Shown in pieces: positions 24,435 through 43,036 of a stretch of 43,577 nt of DNA. Positions within the stretch are counted from its first letter, which is position 1. Each line of letters begins with the position of its first letter. Position numbers and translations under genes: made by a program. Below the pieces are notes generated by a model. The model saw only the letters and a program-made list of their open reading frames with translations, was not told the origin of the DNA and made no database searches. This DNA comes from a bacterium (lineage in GTDB: Bacteria; Verrucomicrobiota; Verrucomicrobiia; Limisphaerales; UBA11358): the NCBI GenBank assembly GCA_021813325.1, contig JAKALA010000032.1, forward strand, positions 1 to 43,577, written 5' to 3'.

Positions 24435-25454
24435 TTACTTGTTGAAATGGGATCTTCGGGTTCCTTCCTGGATGCGGATGGTGCGTCCCCCGGTGTCAAC
24501 ATGGGGCAACTTGAGCGATTCCTGGCCGAACAATTCCCGGATGAACTTGCCCAAGGTTTCATTCGTTGGGCCATAACCGTCATGATAAATGTAATATTCC
24601 AAGTCAAACATCAATTGATCCGCATTGTCGTAGCGATGCTTTAAATCGCGGGCCAGACAATGGTGCAAAATATCATTGAGCTTGCCGTCGATACGCGCAT
24701 CGAGCGAATGAAAATCTGGAATCGGCTGGTGCATGATGCGATGCCGCGATTCCTCGGCGTTTTCGCCTTTGAATATGTTCCGGCCCAGCAACAAATTGGC
24801 CAGCACCACGCCGGCGGAAAAAATATCCGACCGCTTGTCGGTGACTTGAAAATCCGCCTGCTCGGGACTCATGTAATCCGGTTTGCCCGCCACCACTTCC
24901 CCTTCCTGATCGGTTAAAAAACCGCGCGCCTTGGCAATGCCAAAATCGGTCAATTTCACGTCGCCTTCAAAGGCAATCATGACGTTCTTGAAACTGACAT
25001 CCCGATGCACGATGCCCAGCGGCTTGCCATCCTTGTCGGTCTTGGCGTGGGCGTAGGCTAGTCCACGGGCCACGCGGCTGGTGATGAACACCGCGAGTTC
25101 CTTGGGCAGGGTCCGCTTTTTCTCCGTCAACTGCTGGGTGAATTGTTCGAGGTTGACCCCCCGGATCAGTTCCATGGCGATAAACGCCGCGCCATTGGCC
25201 TCGCCGAGATGGTAAGTTTGCACAATGTTGGTGTGGATCAAGTCGGCCACCAACTTGGCTTCGCCAATGAAATTCTCGATGAACATCTTCTGGCTCGCAT
25301 AGTTGGGGCGAATGATTTTGATCGCCACGCGCTTGACAAAATTGCGAGTCCCGTGCTGTTCCGCCTCATAGACAATCCCCATGCCACCCTCAAAAATCTT
25401 ACGGGTAATGTCGTAATGAAATTCGTTTTGGATGCTAAAGAGCGCCACGCACAA
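24435..25454 (-). CDS. Stand-alone Hanks-type Ser/Thr protein kinase
   Basis: A 339-residue soluble protein kinase. It has a Gly-rich loop EGGMGIVYEAE (22-32), ATP-binding K46 in VAIKII, a catalytic loop HRDVSFKN (150-157), DFG (170-172) and GKPDYMSPEQ in the activation segment (190-199). The loop keeps the catalytic Asp and Asn but has Ser in place of the usual Lys two residues after Asp, as in many HRDVSxxN bacterial kinases. No transmembrane helix or extracellular sensor follows the kinase core; the C-terminal 60 residues are short and soluble. There is no ATG at the front; translation probably uses TTG 25454 or GTG 25448. It is the first gene of the unit with aguB and the RmlD-like gene, which could be its targets; this is only context. 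Confidence 0.85.
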   Translation of the reverse strand: MCVALFSIQNEFHYDITRKIFEGGMGIVYEAEQHGTRNFVKRVAIKIIRPNYASQKMFIENFIGEAKLVADLIHTNIVQTYHLGEANGAAFIAMELIRGVNLEQFTQQLTEKKRTLPKELAVFITSRVARGLAYAHAKTDKDGKPLGIVHRDVSFKNVMIAFEGDVKLTDFGIAKARGFLTDQEGEVVAGKPDYMSPEQADFQVTDKRSDIFSAGVVLANLLLGRNIFKGENAEESRHRIMHQPIPDFHSLDARIDGKLNDILHHCLARDLKHRYDNADQLMFDLEYYIYHDGYGPTNETLGKFIRELFGQESLKLPHVDTGGRTIRIQEGTRRSHFNK

Positions 25455-36836: not shown

Positions 36837-38030
36837 TTACTTCTTCCGCCGCCAGCCGGCAATAAACATGCCATTCCCGCCCAAATCTTGGGGCCAGATG
36901 AATTTCGCAGCTGTAGCCGGTTGATGATCAAACGGAATCGCAGGCAAATCCATCGGCTCAAATTCCGCCGCAAACTTGGCGCTAAAATCCGCAACCACCT
37001 CCATTGTTTCCGAACGCGTCAACGTGCAGACGGCAAAAACCAATTTGCCACCCGGTTTCACACTCGGCGCGGCATGAGCCAGCAATTGTTTCTGAATCGC
37101 CGCCAGCTCTGCCACATCCTGCGAAGTCGTGGTCCAGCGCGCATGCGGATTGCGTTGCCAGGTGCCCACGCCGCTGCACGGCGCATCCACGAGAATGCCG
37201 TCAAATTTGGTTTTGGTTGGCAACTTGGCGCCGCCATCCCAAAGGGCGCTACGGAAATTGAAAACCTGGGCGCGGGCAGCGCGGCGCTTGAGCGTTTTCA
37301 ATCGCCATTCCGCGCGATCACTCGCCCAAATGAGTCCCTTGTTCTGCATCAAAGCGGACAGGTGCAAGGTCTTGCCACCTTCCCCCGCGCAGGTGTCCCA
37401 CCACGTTTCCCCCGGCTGCGGCGCGCACAGCCAGCCAACCGCCTGTGACGCGATATCTTGAATCTCAAATTCTCCACTGTGAAATTCCGCGCGCTGAAAC
37501 AAATCCTCCTCGCCTTTGTAATGGATGGCGTCCGGCAGCAAAGTTTTCTCCAGCTTGGCGGCGCCCAATTTCTCACACAACTCCCGGCCTTGCCCCGGTT
37601 TGGCGCGCAACCACAGCTTCGGCTCGGATTGAATGGCCCGCGCCCATGCCGGCGTGATCTCCATTTCTTCCTGCAGCCAATTGGGAGCGACACGCTCCAC
37701 CAGACTCGCATCGGAAAATGAATGGGGATCGGCGGCAAAATTGGCGGCCAATTCGCGCGCTTTGTGGATTTGCTGATTCAATGGCGACTCCAAATCCAGC
37801 CAGCCGCGCCAGCGAAAATAATTGAAGACCGTCTGCGAAACCGCCCGAGCGTCGACCGGCAAAATATCGCGCTCGGCCTTGAGATGCTCGCGTAAAACTT
37901 TGTCGGCCGGATTTTTCGCGTCACATGCGGCGATGATGCGTTCCGGCAGGCCGGGTTGCGAACCGACTCGTGCCGAACGTATGGATTTTCGGTTGGAGAT
38001 GTCGTGCTGAAATGCTGAACGAAATTTCAC
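36837..38030 (-). CDS. rsmB: RsmB/Sun-like rRNA m5C methyltransferase
   Basis: A 397-residue SAM-dependent RNA cytosine-C5 methyltransferase of the NOL1/NOP2/Sun family, most like RsmB (16S rRNA C967). An N-terminal NusB-like helical region has ADKVLREHLKAERDILPVDARAVSQTVFNYFRW. The catalytic part has FEIQDIASQAVGWL, DTCAGEGGKTLHLSALM (SAM loop), GILVDAPCSGVGTWQRNPHARW (motif IV with PC) and VFAVCTLTRSETMEVV (motif VI, where the family usually has TC and here VC; the catalytic Cys is kept). Translation starts at a GTG (38030) one base beyond the stop of the DUF1828/1829 gene, so they are probably co-transcribed. RsmB is the best guess; RsmF or another paralogue is possible. Confidence 0.85.
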   Translation of the reverse strand: MKFRSAFQHDISNRKSIRSARVGSQPGLPERIIAACDAKNPADKVLREHLKAERDILPVDARAVSQTVFNYFRWRGWLDLESPLNQQIHKARELAANFAADPHSFSDASLVERVAPNWLQEEMEITPAWARAIQSEPKLWLRAKPGQGRELCEKLGAAKLEKTLLPDAIHYKGEEDLFQRAEFHSGEFEIQDIASQAVGWLCAPQPGETWWDTCAGEGGKTLHLSALMQNKGLIWASDRAEWRLKTLKRRAARAQVFNFRSALWDGGAKLPTKTKFDGILVDAPCSGVGTWQRNPHARWTTTSQDVAELAAIQKQLLAHAAPSVKPGGKLVFAVCTLTRSETMEVVADFSAKFAAEFEPMDLPAIPFDHQPATAAKFIWPQDLGGNGMFIAGWRRKK

Positions 38031-38031
38031 C

Positions 38032-38805
38032 CTAGTTATTGATCAAAATTGATGCCTCAGCTTCGCGTTTGCTCCAAACGATTGGAAGGATGCCATACAA
38101 ACTTAACGCAGAAAGATGTTCTGCATTAACTGAACCATCTGAATCGTTGATAAAAGCATAGGCGGAAAGATTGCCTTTGCCACGTTCACGTTCAACGTCC
38201 GAAACCATAAACGCCAAACTTGCTGCACGGTCTTTGGTTAGTTGGTTAATAGCTTGAATAACACCTTCAGGCTTGTTGCCGCGCGGAGGGATAGCAAAAT
38301 CAAATTTGTGATCAAAACCACTGTATCCAGCCAGTTTGACATCGCGAAACGGCGCTACATCTTTCGCGCGCAGAAACTTTTCTACATCCTCCTTAAAGAG
38401 TTGAAGCACGGATTCTTCGCCCATTACAAACATGTCGTTCACAGCCATGATGGCCTGAATAAGATTGTGCTTTCTCTGTGGAAAATCTTTAGGCATCGTT
38501 GAAACACAAAGCTCATCATTTTCACTCCGCACGCCAAAACCATGAAGAATAGCTTTCAGGTGCCGCTCTCGTTTTTCAGTATCTAAGAGCAGTGATGAAT
38601 GACGTAAATCATTTAACGTATAACCGTCATCTGTCAGCCAAATCACGCCTCCACGTTTCTCGACATAAATTTCTATCTCATCGTTGTGGCGATCGAGAAA
38701 TGGTGTTGATATCACACAGCTAGACTCCAACTGACCAATACGCAATTCTTCCTTTAGCCACGATAGATAAGCGTTCACAAGTTGTTTGCATTCGATGGTC
38801 GTCAT
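38032..38805 (-). CDS. DUF1828/DUF1829-domain protein
   Basis: A 257-residue soluble protein of unknown function. Residues about 28-70 (SSCVISTPFLDRHNDEIEIYVEKRGG then VIWLTDDGYTLNDLRHS) fit DUF1828. Residues about 150-245 (PFRDVKLAGYSGFDHKFDFAIPP and the following ASLAFMVSDVERERG) fit DUF1829. Conserved Asp, Glu and Lys residues in a FDFxI-type beta strand recall the layout of restriction-like nucleases, but I cannot show an active site. It starts 2 bp after the stop of the DUF6978-type gene. Both are A+T-richer than their neighbours (two 60-bp lines counted by hand gave 27 and 23 G/C), and the pair separates acnA from rsmB. That is a typical mark of an inserted accessory pair (toxin-antitoxin or defence); the role is inference. 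Confidence 0.75.
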   Translation of the reverse strand: MTTIECKQLVNAYLSWLKEELRIGQLESSCVISTPFLDRHNDEIEIYVEKRGGVIWLTDDGYTLNDLRHSSLLLDTEKRERHLKAILHGFGVRSENDELCVSTMPKDFPQRKHNLIQAIMAVNDMFVMGEESVLQLFKEDVEKFLRAKDVAPFRDVKLAGYSGFDHKFDFAIPPRGNKPEGVIQAINQLTKDRAASLAFMVSDVERERGKGNLSAYAFINDSDGSVNAEHLSALSLYGILPIVWSKREAEASILINN

Positions 38806-38807
38806 AA

Positions 38808-39275
38808 TCAGACCGTGGTTTGAATCGCCGGAACGCCATCAACATGACAGAATTTTAGAAAATCTTCCAACCATGACAAACCGTTTGATGTATTTTTGAC
38901 GGTAAAGTCGGAAACGTCGGAAACCAAATAAGCAACGCGGTCTTCAAAACCTTCGCGGTAAAGGTGAAGATGCGGGCAAAGCAGTCTTTCATTAGGACGG
39001 TGTGGCGAATCTGGAGGATTTCTGTGAGCTGGACCATCTAAATCTAGCCGAGCCAATACCACAATTTTTCTAGCCCGCGTTTGATATTTAAGACGCGCAC
39101 GTTTCCGGTTACCTCGTTCAATCGTAAGGATAAACTCCTCGCGGCGGTCGTTTGAAAGCAAGACACACTCGTGATCCATTGGAGTTGTCATGGAAAACTC
39201 CAACGGATCATCACTCTTGAATATTTTTGGCAACGCCAAGAGCGCGTCGGCTTCCGCCTGCGAAAGGGCACTCAT
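38808..39275 (-). CDS. DUF6978-like protein, partner of the DUF1828/1829 gene
   Basis: A 155-residue soluble protein without a known activity. The order of blocks (LSQAEADALLALPKIF, ECVLLSNDRREEFILTIERGNRKRARLKYQTRARKIVVLARLDLDGPAHRNPP, then NERLLCPHLHLYREGFEDRVAYLV and LSWLEDFLKFCHV) fits what I remember of DUF6978, a family often coded next to DUF1828 proteins. The blocks PHLHLYREG and DGPAHRNP hold several His/Asp that could be catalytic or metal-binding. It starts 15 bp after acnA stops and ends 2 bp before the DUF1828/1829 ATG. No Shine-Dalgarno is visible. No transposase, att site or methylase adjoins, so the boundaries of any mobile unit seem to be just these two genes. Confidence 0.72.
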   Translation of the reverse strand: MSALSQAEADALLALPKIFKSDDPLEFSMTTPMDHECVLLSNDRREEFILTIERGNRKRARLKYQTRARKIVVLARLDLDGPAHRNPPDSPHRPNERLLCPHLHLYREGFEDRVAYLVSDVSDFTVKNTSNGLSWLEDFLKFCHVDGVPAIQTTV

Positions 39276-39290
39276 TTTGCTGTCAACAAT

Positions 39291-42044
39291 TTACGCCTTC
39301 GCGACCAACTGGCGCAACACGAAAGGCAGAATGCCACCGTGCTGGTAGTAGTCGATCTCGATGGGCGTATCAATACGGCAGCAGACAGCCACATTTTCCA
39401 CTGTGCCGTCTTTGCGCGTGATCTTGAGCGTCAAATCCTGCTGCGGCTTGATGTTCGCATCAAGTCCCACGATGTCGTAAGTCTCGGTGCCATCGAGCTT
39501 CAGCGATTGCGCGGTAGTGCCATCCTTGAATTGCAGCGGGAGCACGCCCATGCCAACGAGATTGCTGCGATGGATGCGCTCGAAGCTTTGCGCCACGACG
39601 GCTTTCACGCCGAGCAGGTTTGTGCCTTTCGCGGCCCAGTCGCGCGACGAGCCGGTGCCGTATTCCTGGCCGGCAATTACCACGAGCGGCGTGCCGCGCT
39701 TCTGATATTCCATCGAAGCGTCGTAGATCGAAACTTTCTTGCCTTCCGGTTGCAGAATCGTGTCGCCGCCTTCCACCCCGGGAACCATGAGGTTTTTTAT
39801 GCGGACGTTGGCAAACGTGCCACGCGTCATCACACGATCGTTACCACGACGCGAGCCGTAGCTGTTGAAGTCTTCGGGCGCCACGCCGTTATCAATGAGG
39901 TATTTCCCGGCGGGGGTCGTTTTCTTGAACGAGCCGGCGGGCGAAATGTGGTCGGTGGTCACACTGTCGCCGAAAATGCCAAGCGCGCGCGCGCCGGCAA
40001 TCGGCTTGATGCTGCCGGGCGTCATCGAGAAATTCTCGAAGAACGGCGGTTCCTGAATGTAAGTGGACTTGCGGTCCCATTCGTAAACATTGCCGGTGCT
40101 GGAGGAGATTTCGTTCCATTTCGGATTCTGCGCCGCAAAATCCTTGTAGAGCTGGCGAAAAACTTCCGGCTGCAACGCGGACTGCATGAGATCGCGAACG
40201 TCCTTGAGACTCGGCCAGATGTCGCGCAGGTAAACAGGCTTGCCGTCTGTGCCGGTGCCAAGCGCATCATTGGCGAGGTCAATATCCACGCGACCCGCGA
40301 GTGCAAACGCGACGACGAGCGGCGGCGACATCAGGAAGTTCGCCTTGATGTTCTGGTGCACACGCGCCTCAAAATTACGGTTGCCGGAAAGCACCGCGGC
40401 AGCCACCAGATTATTTTTCACCACGGCGTCTTCAATCGGCGCCGCGAGCGGACCGGAATTGCCGATGCACGTGGCGCAACCATAGCCGATGAGGTTGAAA
40501 CCGAGCTGGTCCAAGAACGGCTGGAGACCGGTCTTGTTCAGGTAATCGCTCACCACCCGTGAGCCGGGCGCCAGCGATGCCTTGACAGTGGTATTGACGG
40601 TCAGGCCTTTTTCCACCGCTTTCTTCGCAAGCAAACCAGCCGCCAGCATCACGGTCGGATTGCTGGTGTTGGTGCAACTGGTAATGGAAGCAATGAGCAC
40701 CGAACCGTGACCGATGGCGGATTTCGTGCCATTCATCGACACTTCCGCGCGAACTTTGCCAAGATCTTCAGCCTTCATGCCAAAGCCGTTTTCGGTGACC
40801 GGCTTGGAAAACGTCGTGGTAAATTCATTCTTCAGTTTCGGCAATTCAATGCGGTCCTGCGGGCGTTTGGGGCCGGCCACGCTGGGCAGCACCGTGCCGA
40901 GGTCGAGTTCCAATTCCACTGAATAATTGATGTCGCCTTTCCTCGGAATACCCCACAATCCCTGCGCCTTGTAATAATTTTCGTAGGTTTTGACGGCTTC
41001 CTCGCTGCGGCCGGTGGCGCGGAGATAATTGGCGCACTCCGCGTCAATCGGGAAAAAGCCCATCGTCGCCCCGTATTCCGGCGCCATGTTGGCAATGGTC
41101 GCGCGATCCACGAGCGGCAGCGCCGCCGCGCCGGGACCGAAGAATTCGACAAATTTGCCGACGACCTTGGCTTTGCGGAGCATTTGCGTGACGGTGAGAG
41201 CGACGTCCGTGGCGGTAACGCCTTCGCGAATGGAGCCGGTCATATGCACGCCCACAACGTCCGGCGTGAGGAAATAAACGGGCTGGCCCAACATGCCGGC
41301 CTCGGCTTCGATGCCGCCGACGCCCCAACCGACGATGCCAATGCCGTTGATCATCGTCGTGTGCGAATCGGTGCCGACGAGCGTGTCGGGATAAAAGAGT
41401 GGCTGCGACGCCCCCGTCGCAGAACTGGATGGCGACGAGGCGTCGCCGCCACTACAAAGCACGCCCTTGGCGAGATATTCCAAATTGACCTGATGAATGA
41501 TGCCAATGCCCGGCGGCACTACTTTAAACGTGTCGAACGCCTGCATGCCCCATTTCAAAAACTGGTAGCGCTCGCGGTTCCGGGCGAACTCGAGATCGAG
41601 ATTCTTCTGCATGGCGTCCGGCGTGCCGGCAAAATCCACTTGAACTGAGTGGTCCACAACGAGGTCCACCGGCACCAGCGGCTCAATGAGCTTCGGATTT
41701 TTGCCAAGCTTGTTCACAGCGCTGCGCATGGCGGCCAAATCCACCAACAATGGCACGCCGGTGAAGTCCTGCAAAACGATGCGGGCCACGACAAAGGGAA
41801 TTTCCGCTGTGCGCGTTTCAACCGCTTTCCAATTAGCCAGTTCCTTCACGTTCGCTTCATGAACTTTCTTGCCGTCGCAATTACGCAAAACGGATTCAAG
41901 GACGAGGCGGATGCAAACCGGAAGCTTTGAAATCGGACCGACTCCGGCCTTTTCCAGAGCGGGGAGCGAATAGAATTTCCCGGGCTGTCCGTTGCCCAGT
42001 TCAAAGGTTTGCAGGGTGCCAAACAAATTGTGTGATGTGCTCAT
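39291..42044 (-). CDS. acnA: Aconitate hydratase A
   Basis: A 917-residue AcnA-type aconitase ([4Fe-4S] enzyme isomerising citrate and isocitrate in the TCA cycle). Family blocks: [64 protein letters not shown] (cluster Cys), [14 protein letters not shown] (the two further cluster Cys), [16 protein letters not shown] and [16 protein letters not shown] (swivel-domain substrate loop). Residues 197-216 ([20 protein letters not shown]) are an extra 20-residue, Ser/Ala-rich insertion not found in ordinary AcnA. They are encoded by a palindromic repeat (see 41397-41456) and leave the frame and all catalytic residues intact. A TTGACA lies 62-67 bp upstream of the ATG and a Fur-like palindrome just beyond it. 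The DUF6978-like gene follows 15 bp downstream. Confidence 0.97.
41397..41456. repeat. 60-bp twin-hairpin palindromic element inserted in frame in acnA
   Basis: Two hairpins: CTGCGACG-CCCC-CGTCGCAG (41403-41422) and GGCGACG-AGG-CGTCGCC (41431-41447), joined by AACTGGAT and bounded by GTGGC (41399-41403) and GCCAC (41448-41452), an outer inverted repeat. The element is exactly 60 bp, or 20 codons, and falls between conserved aconitase residues GVL and FYPDTLVG. The two hairpins share the stem core CGACG/CGTCG. This is the architecture of REP doublets or Rickettsia-type palindromic elements. Confidence 0.85.
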
Positions 42045-42123
42045 TTAATTGGGTGGTTAAATCAACCTTAAATCGCCGCAAGAAAATGAAGATTAGCTGC
42101 CCGACTGTCAAGCGAAGCGCGGG

Positions 42124-42136
42124 GATAATGATTATC
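42124..42136. promoter_or_regulatory. Fur-like palindrome upstream of acnA
   Basis: GATAAT-G-ATTATC is a perfect 6-1-6 inverted repeat, equal to the core of the classical Fur box. It is 79 bp upstream of the acnA ATG and 12 bp beyond a TTGACA (42106-42111 read on the minus strand) that could be the acnA -35; I found no convincing -10. It suggests iron-linked control of aconitase. A short palindrome can arise by chance, so this is a candidate only. Confidence 0.45.
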
Positions 42137-42199
42137 GTGGCAGCGGGCCGCCCCCAATCCAGTCCCGCGTCTTTCCGCCTTATGTCGGCTGCCAGCAAA

Positions 42200-42580
42200 T
42201 CAGTTCACGCCAAGCTGATGTCTGAGGATTTCGCCGACCCGTTTTTCCAAGCGATTCAAGTCCAGCGGCTTGGTGAAGAAATCCTCCGCATTCATTATCG
42301 CCGTGCGTTTGGTAACGCTGCTGCTCAACGCGCTCATGAAAATGATCGGTATCTTTTTGGTGGCCGGCTGACGGCGCAGGATTTCGCATACCGACAATCC
42401 GTCCAAATCCGGCAGCAAAATGTCGAGCAGGATGAGGTTCGGCTTGCCTTCGCGGGCCTGGCTTAGGGCGTGAACGCCATCGTTCGCCACCAGAAACTCG
42501 CAGTGCAAATTCGTCAACCGAAACTTCACCAGTTCAATGAACTCACCCTCATCATCCACTATTAAAATACGCGGCACCAT
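42200..42580 (-). CDS. Single-domain response regulator
   Basis: A 126-residue stand-alone receiver domain (CheY-like). The acidic pair is in ILIVDDEGEF, the phospho-acceptor Asp in LILLDILLPDLDG, the switch Thr/Ser in FMSALSSS and the Lys in FFTKPLD. There is no output domain, so it acts by protein contacts or as a relay step. No histidine kinase adjoins; the hybrid kinase at 14.9-20.2 kb is in the same window but far away. Translation starts at an ATG at 42580. It ends 155 bp upstream of acnA on the same strand, and that gap holds the Fur-like palindrome. Confidence 0.93.
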   Translation of the reverse strand: MVPRILIVDDEGEFIELVKFRLTNLHCEFLVANDGVHALSQAREGKPNLILLDILLPDLDGLSVCEILRRQPATKKIPIIFMSALSSSVTKRTAIMNAEDFFTKPLDLNRLEKRVGEILRHQLGVN

Positions 42581-43036
42581 ATTGAAGGTTAAAATTCGGG
42601 CCCGCCAAAATCAACGACGGCACGGTGACATCGAGGTTACAAAGGGGAAACATCCGTAACATTTAAGCCGCTATCGTTTGGGATTTTGTGCGATTGCATT
42701 GGCAACGCCGCGATTTCGTCTGAAAAACCGCAAAGCCCGTAAAATTTGCCAAGTCACAAAACCCACCATAACCTCAGTGAGAACAAGCGATAAATCATTC
42801 GGCGGGGCGTCCCCGCGAGCCGCTGGGGATCCATGACGCAGACATACATCTGGCGAGCATGGAGATTGATTTCGCAGTTGAATTCCGTGGTGGAGATGTA
42901 ATAACTTCATACGATCATTCGTTGTGGTGTCGCGAGGCACCGGTTTAAGTTGAATGGTTCCGCGGGAAAGTGCTGTTTCACTTTCCCGCCCTGTTCGCCC
43001 AGATGACAACAAAAAACCAAAAGGGCTTAACTGGGA
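42581..43036. other. Non-coding stretch before the attC-like site
   Basis: About 450 bp with no gene I can support; open frames on both strands lack start context and family features. Structures seen: GCGGGG-CGT-CCCCGC near 42803-42817 and a perfect 11-bp hairpin GCGGGAAAGTG-CTGTTT-CACTTTCCCGC at 42962-42989, without a T tail. If the attC-like site is real, the right part of this stretch would be the body of a gene-less or decayed integron cassette. Confidence 0.5.

Follow-up and report, generated by a model that had tools for sequence, protein, structure and literature searches.

The window analyzed here, a stretch of 43,577 bp, carries two genes, DUF6978 and DUF1828-1829, between an aconitase gene (acnA) and an rsmB-like methyltransferase gene (Table 1). 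All four genes are codirectional in the list of open reading frames (ORFs), and the gaps acnA/DUF6978, DUF6978/DUF1828-1829, and DUF1828-1829/rsmB-like are 15, 2, and 1 bp, the same figures as in the original prediction made for this DNA. That prediction had also called the pair low in GC relative to neighbors guessed at about 60%. The measured GC fraction of the pair is 0.449 (0.474 for DUF6978 and 0.434 for DUF1828-1829), compared to 0.578 for acnA, 0.575 for rsmB, and 0.561 for the window. The pair region is the lowest-GC part of the window: in a scan of 1,244-bp segments in 50-bp steps (mean, 0.562; SD, 0.029), the eight lowest segments begin at 37751 to 38151. No mobile-element gene was recognized adjoining the pair in the window, no tRNA was found within the whole window, and no repeats flank the pair in 37500-39800, where a single imperfect 18-bp repeat pair was present. 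Promoter and terminator sites in 37800-42700 were not in excess over shuffled sequences.

Table 1. Features of the locus in the window
Feature	Coordinates	Strand	Evidence and remarks
acnA	39291-42044	-	ORF list and Pfam PF00330/PF00694 (aconitase); upstream neighbor of the pair in three genomes
acnA-DUF6978 gap	39276-39290	-	15 bp; equal length in G014, about 61 bp in L094
DUF6978 gene (PDC-M24A), 155 aa	38808-39275	-	PF22398, E 1.2e-30, and PADLOC; proposed toxin
DUF1828-DUF1829 gene (PDC-M24B), 257 aa	38032-38805	-	Pfam and PADLOC; proposed antitoxin/sensor
DUF1828 N-terminal domain, about residues 14-128	38422-38766	-	PF08861, E 8.2e-27; predicted structure
DUF1829 C-terminal domain, residues 129-257	38035-38421	-	PF08862, E 1.5e-21; predicted structure
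rsmB-like methyltransferase	36837-38030	-	PF01189 (RsmB/F)

The pair is an already catalogued defense candidate. PADLOC identified DUF6978 as PDC-M24A (PDLC04538, 1.3e-39) and DUF1828-1829 as PDC-M24B (PDLC04539, 6.7e-85), and, as in PDC-M24, the two homologues are adjacent and in one direction, here with a 2-bp gap. However, no defense system was recognized around the copy in the window, which occurs by itself after acnA, whereas defense neighbors are seen in relatives. In the available text of PMC12988326, PDCs are putative defense candidates proposed by guilt by embedding, with validation pending for most of the core set, and its reference list gives a preprint by Payne and others as their source. 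Going by its name, M24 presumably belongs to that work. The accessible portions of the literature searched yielded no function for PDC-M24, DUF1828, or DUF6978. Neither protein had an NCBIfam match, and PDB sequence searches with both returned chance-level matches only. The window offers an unusual, solitary copy of this candidate and, with it, a new mechanistic lead.

Both families had been described in the original prediction as scattered across phyla and often adjacent, forming a strict two-gene unit, and the survey of relatives supports a tight two-gene unit that occurs in many phyla. Named genomes, when scanned, contained 429 relatives of DUF1828-1829, from both bacteria and archaea. Among the best 80 of these 429, 75 loci have DUF6978 immediately upstream of DUF1828 in the same orientation; this arrangement was also found at 26 of 39 viral loci and, in a phylum set that counts some places twice, at 12 of 21. 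The locus sets overlap; over these sets, each of the 114 same-strand pairings has DUF6978 before DUF1828, as in the window, with a median gap of -4. The two proteins codiverge: after removal of 5 of the 74 pairs, each with a short member, the distance matrices of the remaining 69 correlate at r = 0.837, a value that was reached in 0 of 2,000 permutations and that includes any shared species history. In the phylum sample, DUF6978 was detected in 7 of 387 genomes (6 above the cutoff) and DUF1828 in 16 of 387 (14 above the cutoff). In a tree built from 59 DUF1828 proteins, the phylum labels require 27 changes, compared to a minimum of 19 and a shuffled mean of 39.6; phyla thus appear partly clustered and partly scattered, a pattern compatible with transfer but no proof of it.

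Some loci depart from the common arrangement. Two (L085 and L087) have no DUF6978 match but, on reading, an upstream ORF of 150 to 162 aa with a similar histidine motif, whereas no partner-like upstream ORF was seen on reading at, e.g., L086, L090, and L123. A divergent DUF1828 subgroup (L041, L091, L092, and L093) has an upstream partner of 150 to 156 aa in which a GWHQN...DPN motif replaces the usual H-x-N..H-x-H. One pair of this type occurs in G015, a genome of the window's genus, on a contig other than its acnA contig. At the viral loci L186, L194, and L206, DUF1828 and DUF6978 converge rather than lying in tandem. By tblastn, DUF1828 was found in 17 phage and 10 plasmid records, and the window's DUF6978 was found in 2 plasmid records and in no phage record; a DUF6978 scan of viral contigs gave 2 loci. 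On an Acetobacter plasmid (L225, 4956-5432), the annotation splits the DUF6978 stretch into two short genes named prophage protein. Among the control genomes, E. coli matches the DUF1828 model, and the DUF6978 model had no match in the 14 control genomes.

The AlphaFold model of DUF6978 (pLDDT, 94.1; pTM, 0.89) has helices at residues 6 to 14 and 132 to 142 and nine strands, six of at least 6 residues. Foldseek against PDB and viral models returned no look-alike at an E value of ≤0.001, and the best Z score of VIA against PDB was 4.3; this shows neither a new fold nor an absence of relatives. The key residues are R76-x-D78, H84-x-N86-P87, and H102-x-H104, plus K17, R67, and E108. K17 and R76 occur in all 86 aligned rows, H84 in 84, and H102 and H104 in 85, and conservation of at least 90% was found for F48, R67, L74, H84, N86, P87, H102, H104, E108, and A115. 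(The two alignments used for the pair, A3 and A4, have 86 rows each, chosen from 112 and 89 references.) Because of the histidine motif and of weak matches to Ntox24, two toxin families, Ntox24 and TumE, were examined as possible relatives.

According to the available text of PMC10584680, six TumE toxins halt growth and are rescued by their antitoxins, the one tested lowers protein synthesis, the fold consists of two helices on a seven-strand antiparallel sheet, and most TumE genes follow their partner gene. DUF6978 resembles TumE-TumA (TumE = DUF6516, PF20126) in its R-x-D, H, and H-x-H residues, which are ordered alike, and in its bicistronic arrangement; the two helices and antiparallel-type strands of its predicted structure may also correspond to the TumE fold. 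It differs in lacking an HMMER match, in the upstream position of the proposed toxin gene, and in a partner that is not RelB-like. A comparison of hidden Markov models (HMMs) of DUF6978 and 12 TumE sequences gave a probability of 36.6%, which is below usual confidence, with a P value of 3.7e-4 over 67 colinear columns, compared to 0.4% for the control with reversed sequences. With a set of 15 TumE sequences the probability was 13.2% (at most 5.5% in 200 column shuffles), with one TumE alone (L230) it was 1.6%, inside the range of 200 shuffles (up to 8.9%), and with a two-sequence subset picked after the fact it was 0.9%. Five divergent DUF6978-like proteins gave a second, N-terminal TumE match in an uncontrolled comparison (P value of 0.0029). 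The Pfam TumE profile matched 0 of 86 DUF6978 rows at an E value of ≤1. The pattern R-x-D..H..H-x-H, defined after the families had been viewed, occurs in 74 of 86 DUF6978 rows, 9 of 12 TumE sequences, and 8 of 1,763 background ORFs. As judged from these sequence comparisons, kinship between DUF6978 and TumE is suggestive only.

Ntox24 (PF15529) is a candidate that competes with TumE as the toxin relative of DUF6978. It is all-beta and also found in toxin-antitoxin systems (as given in the available text of PMC3482391), and it shares conserved histidines with DUF6978. Its model gave weak matches in 10 of 86 DUF6978 rows (best E value of 0.0093, 16.7 bits), but none reached the curated cutoff of 24 bits. 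An HMM comparison based on three Ntox24 examples only gave a probability of 9.2% (at most 8.3% in 100 shuffles), and the single examples gave 52.6%, 0.2%, and 1.6%. Over 30 host genomes, the Ntox24 model matched weakly at nine places, one of which is the DUF6978 locus of L167. The HMM comparison of TumE with Ntox24 gave a P value of 0.012. Scans of viral sequences for further Ntox24 and TumE proteins confirmed none.

The AlphaFold model of DUF1828-1829 has a pLDDT of 95.4 and a pTM of 0.76. Its N-terminal DUF1828 domain resembles type III secretion chaperones (InvB, SpcU, and ExsC) with Z scores of 7.9 to 8.3 over 88 to 94 residues, a likeness of fold at Z scores near the tool's level for common arrangements, and it is also similar to 8q8o (Z score of 9.1) and 3cxj (Z score of 8.7). 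P35, D59, and L67 are present in 86 of 86 rows, and D42 is present in 83. The predicted structure of the DUF1829 domain has the PD-(D/E)XK fold (best Z score of 11.9 over 111 residues; rmsd, 3.1), the fold of nucleases such as AF1548, PspGI, Can2/Card1, and NucC. In contrast to these nucleases, DUF1829 does not conserve the canonical catalytic lysine. D169 is found in 79 of 86 rows and E180 in 68, but no conserved D...(D/E)xK was found, and at least 80 rows have a hydrophobic residue at position 182. The second protein had originally been called nuclease-like, and this is borne out for its fold but not for an active nuclease, as the canonical (D/E)-x-K is not conserved.

We consider there to be an even chance that the pair is a toxin-antitoxin-like defense module of the PDC-M24 type, with DUF6978 as the toxin and DUF1828-1829 as the antitoxin or sensor. 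DUF6978, a small beta-rich protein with a TumE-like Arg/Asp/His/His cluster, would be the effector, probably a ribonuclease or another translation inhibitor. DUF1828-1829 would bind and restrain it, with the chaperone-like N-terminal domain holding the toxin and the nuclease-fold C-terminal domain, which lacks the usual catalytic lysine, binding nucleic acid as a sensor or scaffold. Phage DNA, or an attack on a neighboring restriction-modification system, might then disturb the complex and free the toxin, and growth of the infected cell would stop. A widespread pair of bacteria, archaea, and phages, so far known by DUF numbers and a candidate label, thereby gains a hypothesis on its division of labor, with the toxin first and a nuclease-fold keeper second. 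If true, this would add a new branch among translation-stopping toxins, represent the reuse of a dead restriction-enzyme fold as an antitoxin or sensor, and suggest a reason for the pair's place among methylase-based defenses.

These roles are the reverse of those in the original prediction. The Arg/Asp/His/His residues, the TumE comparison, and the residue pattern suggest, without settling it, that DUF6978 is the more toxin-like member. The main rival keeps the original assignment, with DUF1828-1829 as a DNA-cutting nuclease of the PD-(D/E)XK type whose active site is displaced and DUF6978 as its inhibitor or trigger sensor; we judge it unlikely, and place the reading of a toxin and its keeper at about even odds. 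The C-terminal domain is indeed similar to defense nucleases (Z scores of 11.8 for PspGI, 11.7 for Can2, 11.4 for Cdn1, and 9.8 for Card1), with further matches to NucC (8.8), an McrBC entry (8.5), and EcoRII (8.4). D169 and D221 are nearly invariant, and a shifted basic residue could be supplied by position 184 (Q, K, or R in 72 of 86 rows), 191 (K in 39 and R in 31), or 161 (K in 54 and R in 16). However, there is no conserved (D/E)-x-K, no lysine at positions 160 to 250 is common to two thirds of the 86 rows (the most frequent is that at 161), and the window protein has Y161 and Q184. The residues of the pair that most resemble an active site belong to DUF6978, which also speaks against the original assignment.

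The neighborhoods of the relatives were searched for defense genes. A neighbor was defined, on either side, as the closest ORF of ≥120 aa no more than 1.5 kb away, as called by a simple longest-ORF method. The neighbors numbered 153, were taken from up to 79 loci, and formed two sets of 104 and 49 genes; the locus in genome G014 (L108) was excluded from the counts. The PADLOC matches listed for the set of 104 include HmaB (6), HmaC (5), MTase_II (6), DUF1156_MTase (6), IIG (3), DrmMI (3), and type I specificity (3), and those listed for the set of 49 include type I specificity (4) and MTase_I (3). A Pfam scan of the 104 genes among the 153 listed DUF499 (5), Eco57I (4), DUF1156 (4), ResIII (3), MmeI (3), and Methylase_S (3). 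PADLOC families matched numbered 323 in the set of 104, compared to 64 in 104 random control ORFs, which were drawn from 218 ORFs in 20 stretches of host genomes and comprise 40,622 residues, fewer than the neighbor set. No restriction-modification, Hma, or DISARM model is among the 25 PADLOC families listed for the control. Nearness to defense genes, which the original prediction had raised, is found in relatives, and the pair is coinherited and linked to defense. The mad2 model, with 5 and 3 matches in the neighbor sets and 3 in the control, was treated as background because rsmB itself matches it.

By eye, a divergent pair in G028 lies beside McrC-, McrB-, and serine-recombinase-like ORFs. 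DUF1828 lies between a repressor and an integrase in three phage-type records, namely, prophage Lj965, satellite phage Javan357, and a Staphylococcus plasmid record that includes phage genes; the DUF6978-like ORF upstream is annotated as hypothetical in Lj965 and is unannotated in the other two. Two Verrucomicrobiota pairs (L073 and L074) adjoin a reverse-transcriptase-like ORF of >400 aa, and another (L075) lies near a 132-aa TIR-like ORF, all as read by eye.

Around the window pair, a PADLOC scan of the 32 window ORFs revealed no evident defense island. Besides the pair, the 25 families listed out of 32 matched comprise kinase-type models and one REase_II match. The type II restriction enzyme model is matched by one of the 32 ORFs (4.8e-22) and is absent from the families listed for ten window ORFs that were rescanned. 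A protein kinase gene at 24438-25454 (minus strand) matches the PD-T4-6, mad6, and C3a189 models (best, 1.5e-62); these matches are probably generic, as a control gene matches models of the same names. The proposal of a defense or addiction module stands as far as the catalogued candidate and the defense genes near its relatives are concerned, but no such genes are evident around the window pair.

The neighbors matching Hma, type I, IIG, and DISARM models would also suit a two-gene defense unit without toxin-antitoxin logic, e.g., accessory subunits that modulate neighboring restriction or methylase systems. We regard this as improbable, as copies without such systems seen close by occur in the window and in the three phage-type records. 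Within the toxin-antitoxin reading, a more far-reaching version is tentative and a good deal less than evenly probable: the pair could represent a toxin-antitoxin superfamily of a new make, in which the toxin, a distant TumE relative, is restrained by a single protein combining a toxin-holding domain similar to secretion chaperones with a PD-(D/E)XK domain devoid of catalysis. This dead nuclease might read DNA or guard the neighboring restriction-modification system, so that blocked restriction would free the toxin. The pair might then act as a backup to many unrelated methylase-based defenses and be under the control of acnA in the window's relatives.

Of 49 genomes belonging to the genus of the window, DUF6978 was detected in 3 and DUF1828 in 4. 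Vertical conservation across the order, which the original prediction had named in advance as an argument against itself, was therefore not seen. The pair lies directly behind acnA in three genomes, namely, that of the window, G014, and L094 (a metagenome-assembled genome labeled Pedosphaera parvula). Between the window and G014, the two proteins are 95% and 92% identical, and a 4,062-bp DNA match spans acnA through the pair; between the window and L094, DUF1828-1829 is 83% identical. The gene after the pair is rsmB in the window, prepilin-peptidase-like in G014, and hydrolase-like in L094 (the last two read by eye). In G015, the peptidase-like gene of G014 lies behind acnA and the pair is absent there, making this junction the empty counterpart of that in G014. 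rsmB follows acnA codirectionally without the pair in 10 of the 49 genomes (G005, G012, G017, G019, G020, G027, G030, G033, G036, and G044), with 21 to 1153 bp from the end of acnA to the first aligned rsmB residue; G020 has a 249-aa ORF in between. A DNA search of plasmids with the locus gave just pieces of 72 to 84 bp, all within acnA.

The dN/dS ratios between the window and G014 are 0.022 for DUF6978, 0.029 for DUF1828-1829, and 0.081 for acnA, with synonymous sites near saturation, those of the pair more so than those of acnA. The proportion of synonymous differences (pS) is 0.62 to 0.66 for the pair versus 0.56 for acnA between the window and G014 and 0.74 to 0.81 versus 0.49 between the window and L094. 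The higher synonymous divergence of the pair is unexpected under strict joint descent with acnA unless codon bias accounts for it. Given its position behind acnA in three genomes and the very low dN/dS in the comparison of two of them, the pair cannot be called loosely accessory in this setting, contrary to the accessory unit first proposed. In this lineage the pair could also have been domesticated for a cellular function linked to acnA, e.g., stress-controlled translation, with defense given up. This would suit the position behind acnA in three genomes with a different next gene in each and the dN/dS of about 0.03 between two of them, but it is the most doubtful of the readings, as DUF6978 was not found in 46 of 49 genus genomes, elsewhere relatives occur on plasmids, in phage records, and next to defense genes, and strong selection is equally expected for an intact toxin-antitoxin pair. 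In the toxin-antitoxin reading, the genes settled behind acnA in the window lineage, are perhaps read through from acnA, and would be kept by strong selection.

The 1-bp gap to the rsmB-like gene depends on a GTG start at 38030. The roughly 25 to 30 codons that follow are missing from most homologues: tblastn matches to rsmB begin at residues 28 to 32 in 25 of 29 loci (L009 to L037) and at residues 4, 14, 17, and 48 in the remaining four. Codons 2 to 31 of the rsmB-like ORF contain no ATG, GTG, or TTG. Since DNA similarity between the window and G014 runs 38 bp beyond the DUF1828 stop, the N-terminal extension may derive from inserted DNA, and the rsmB-like start may have been remade by insertion of the pair.
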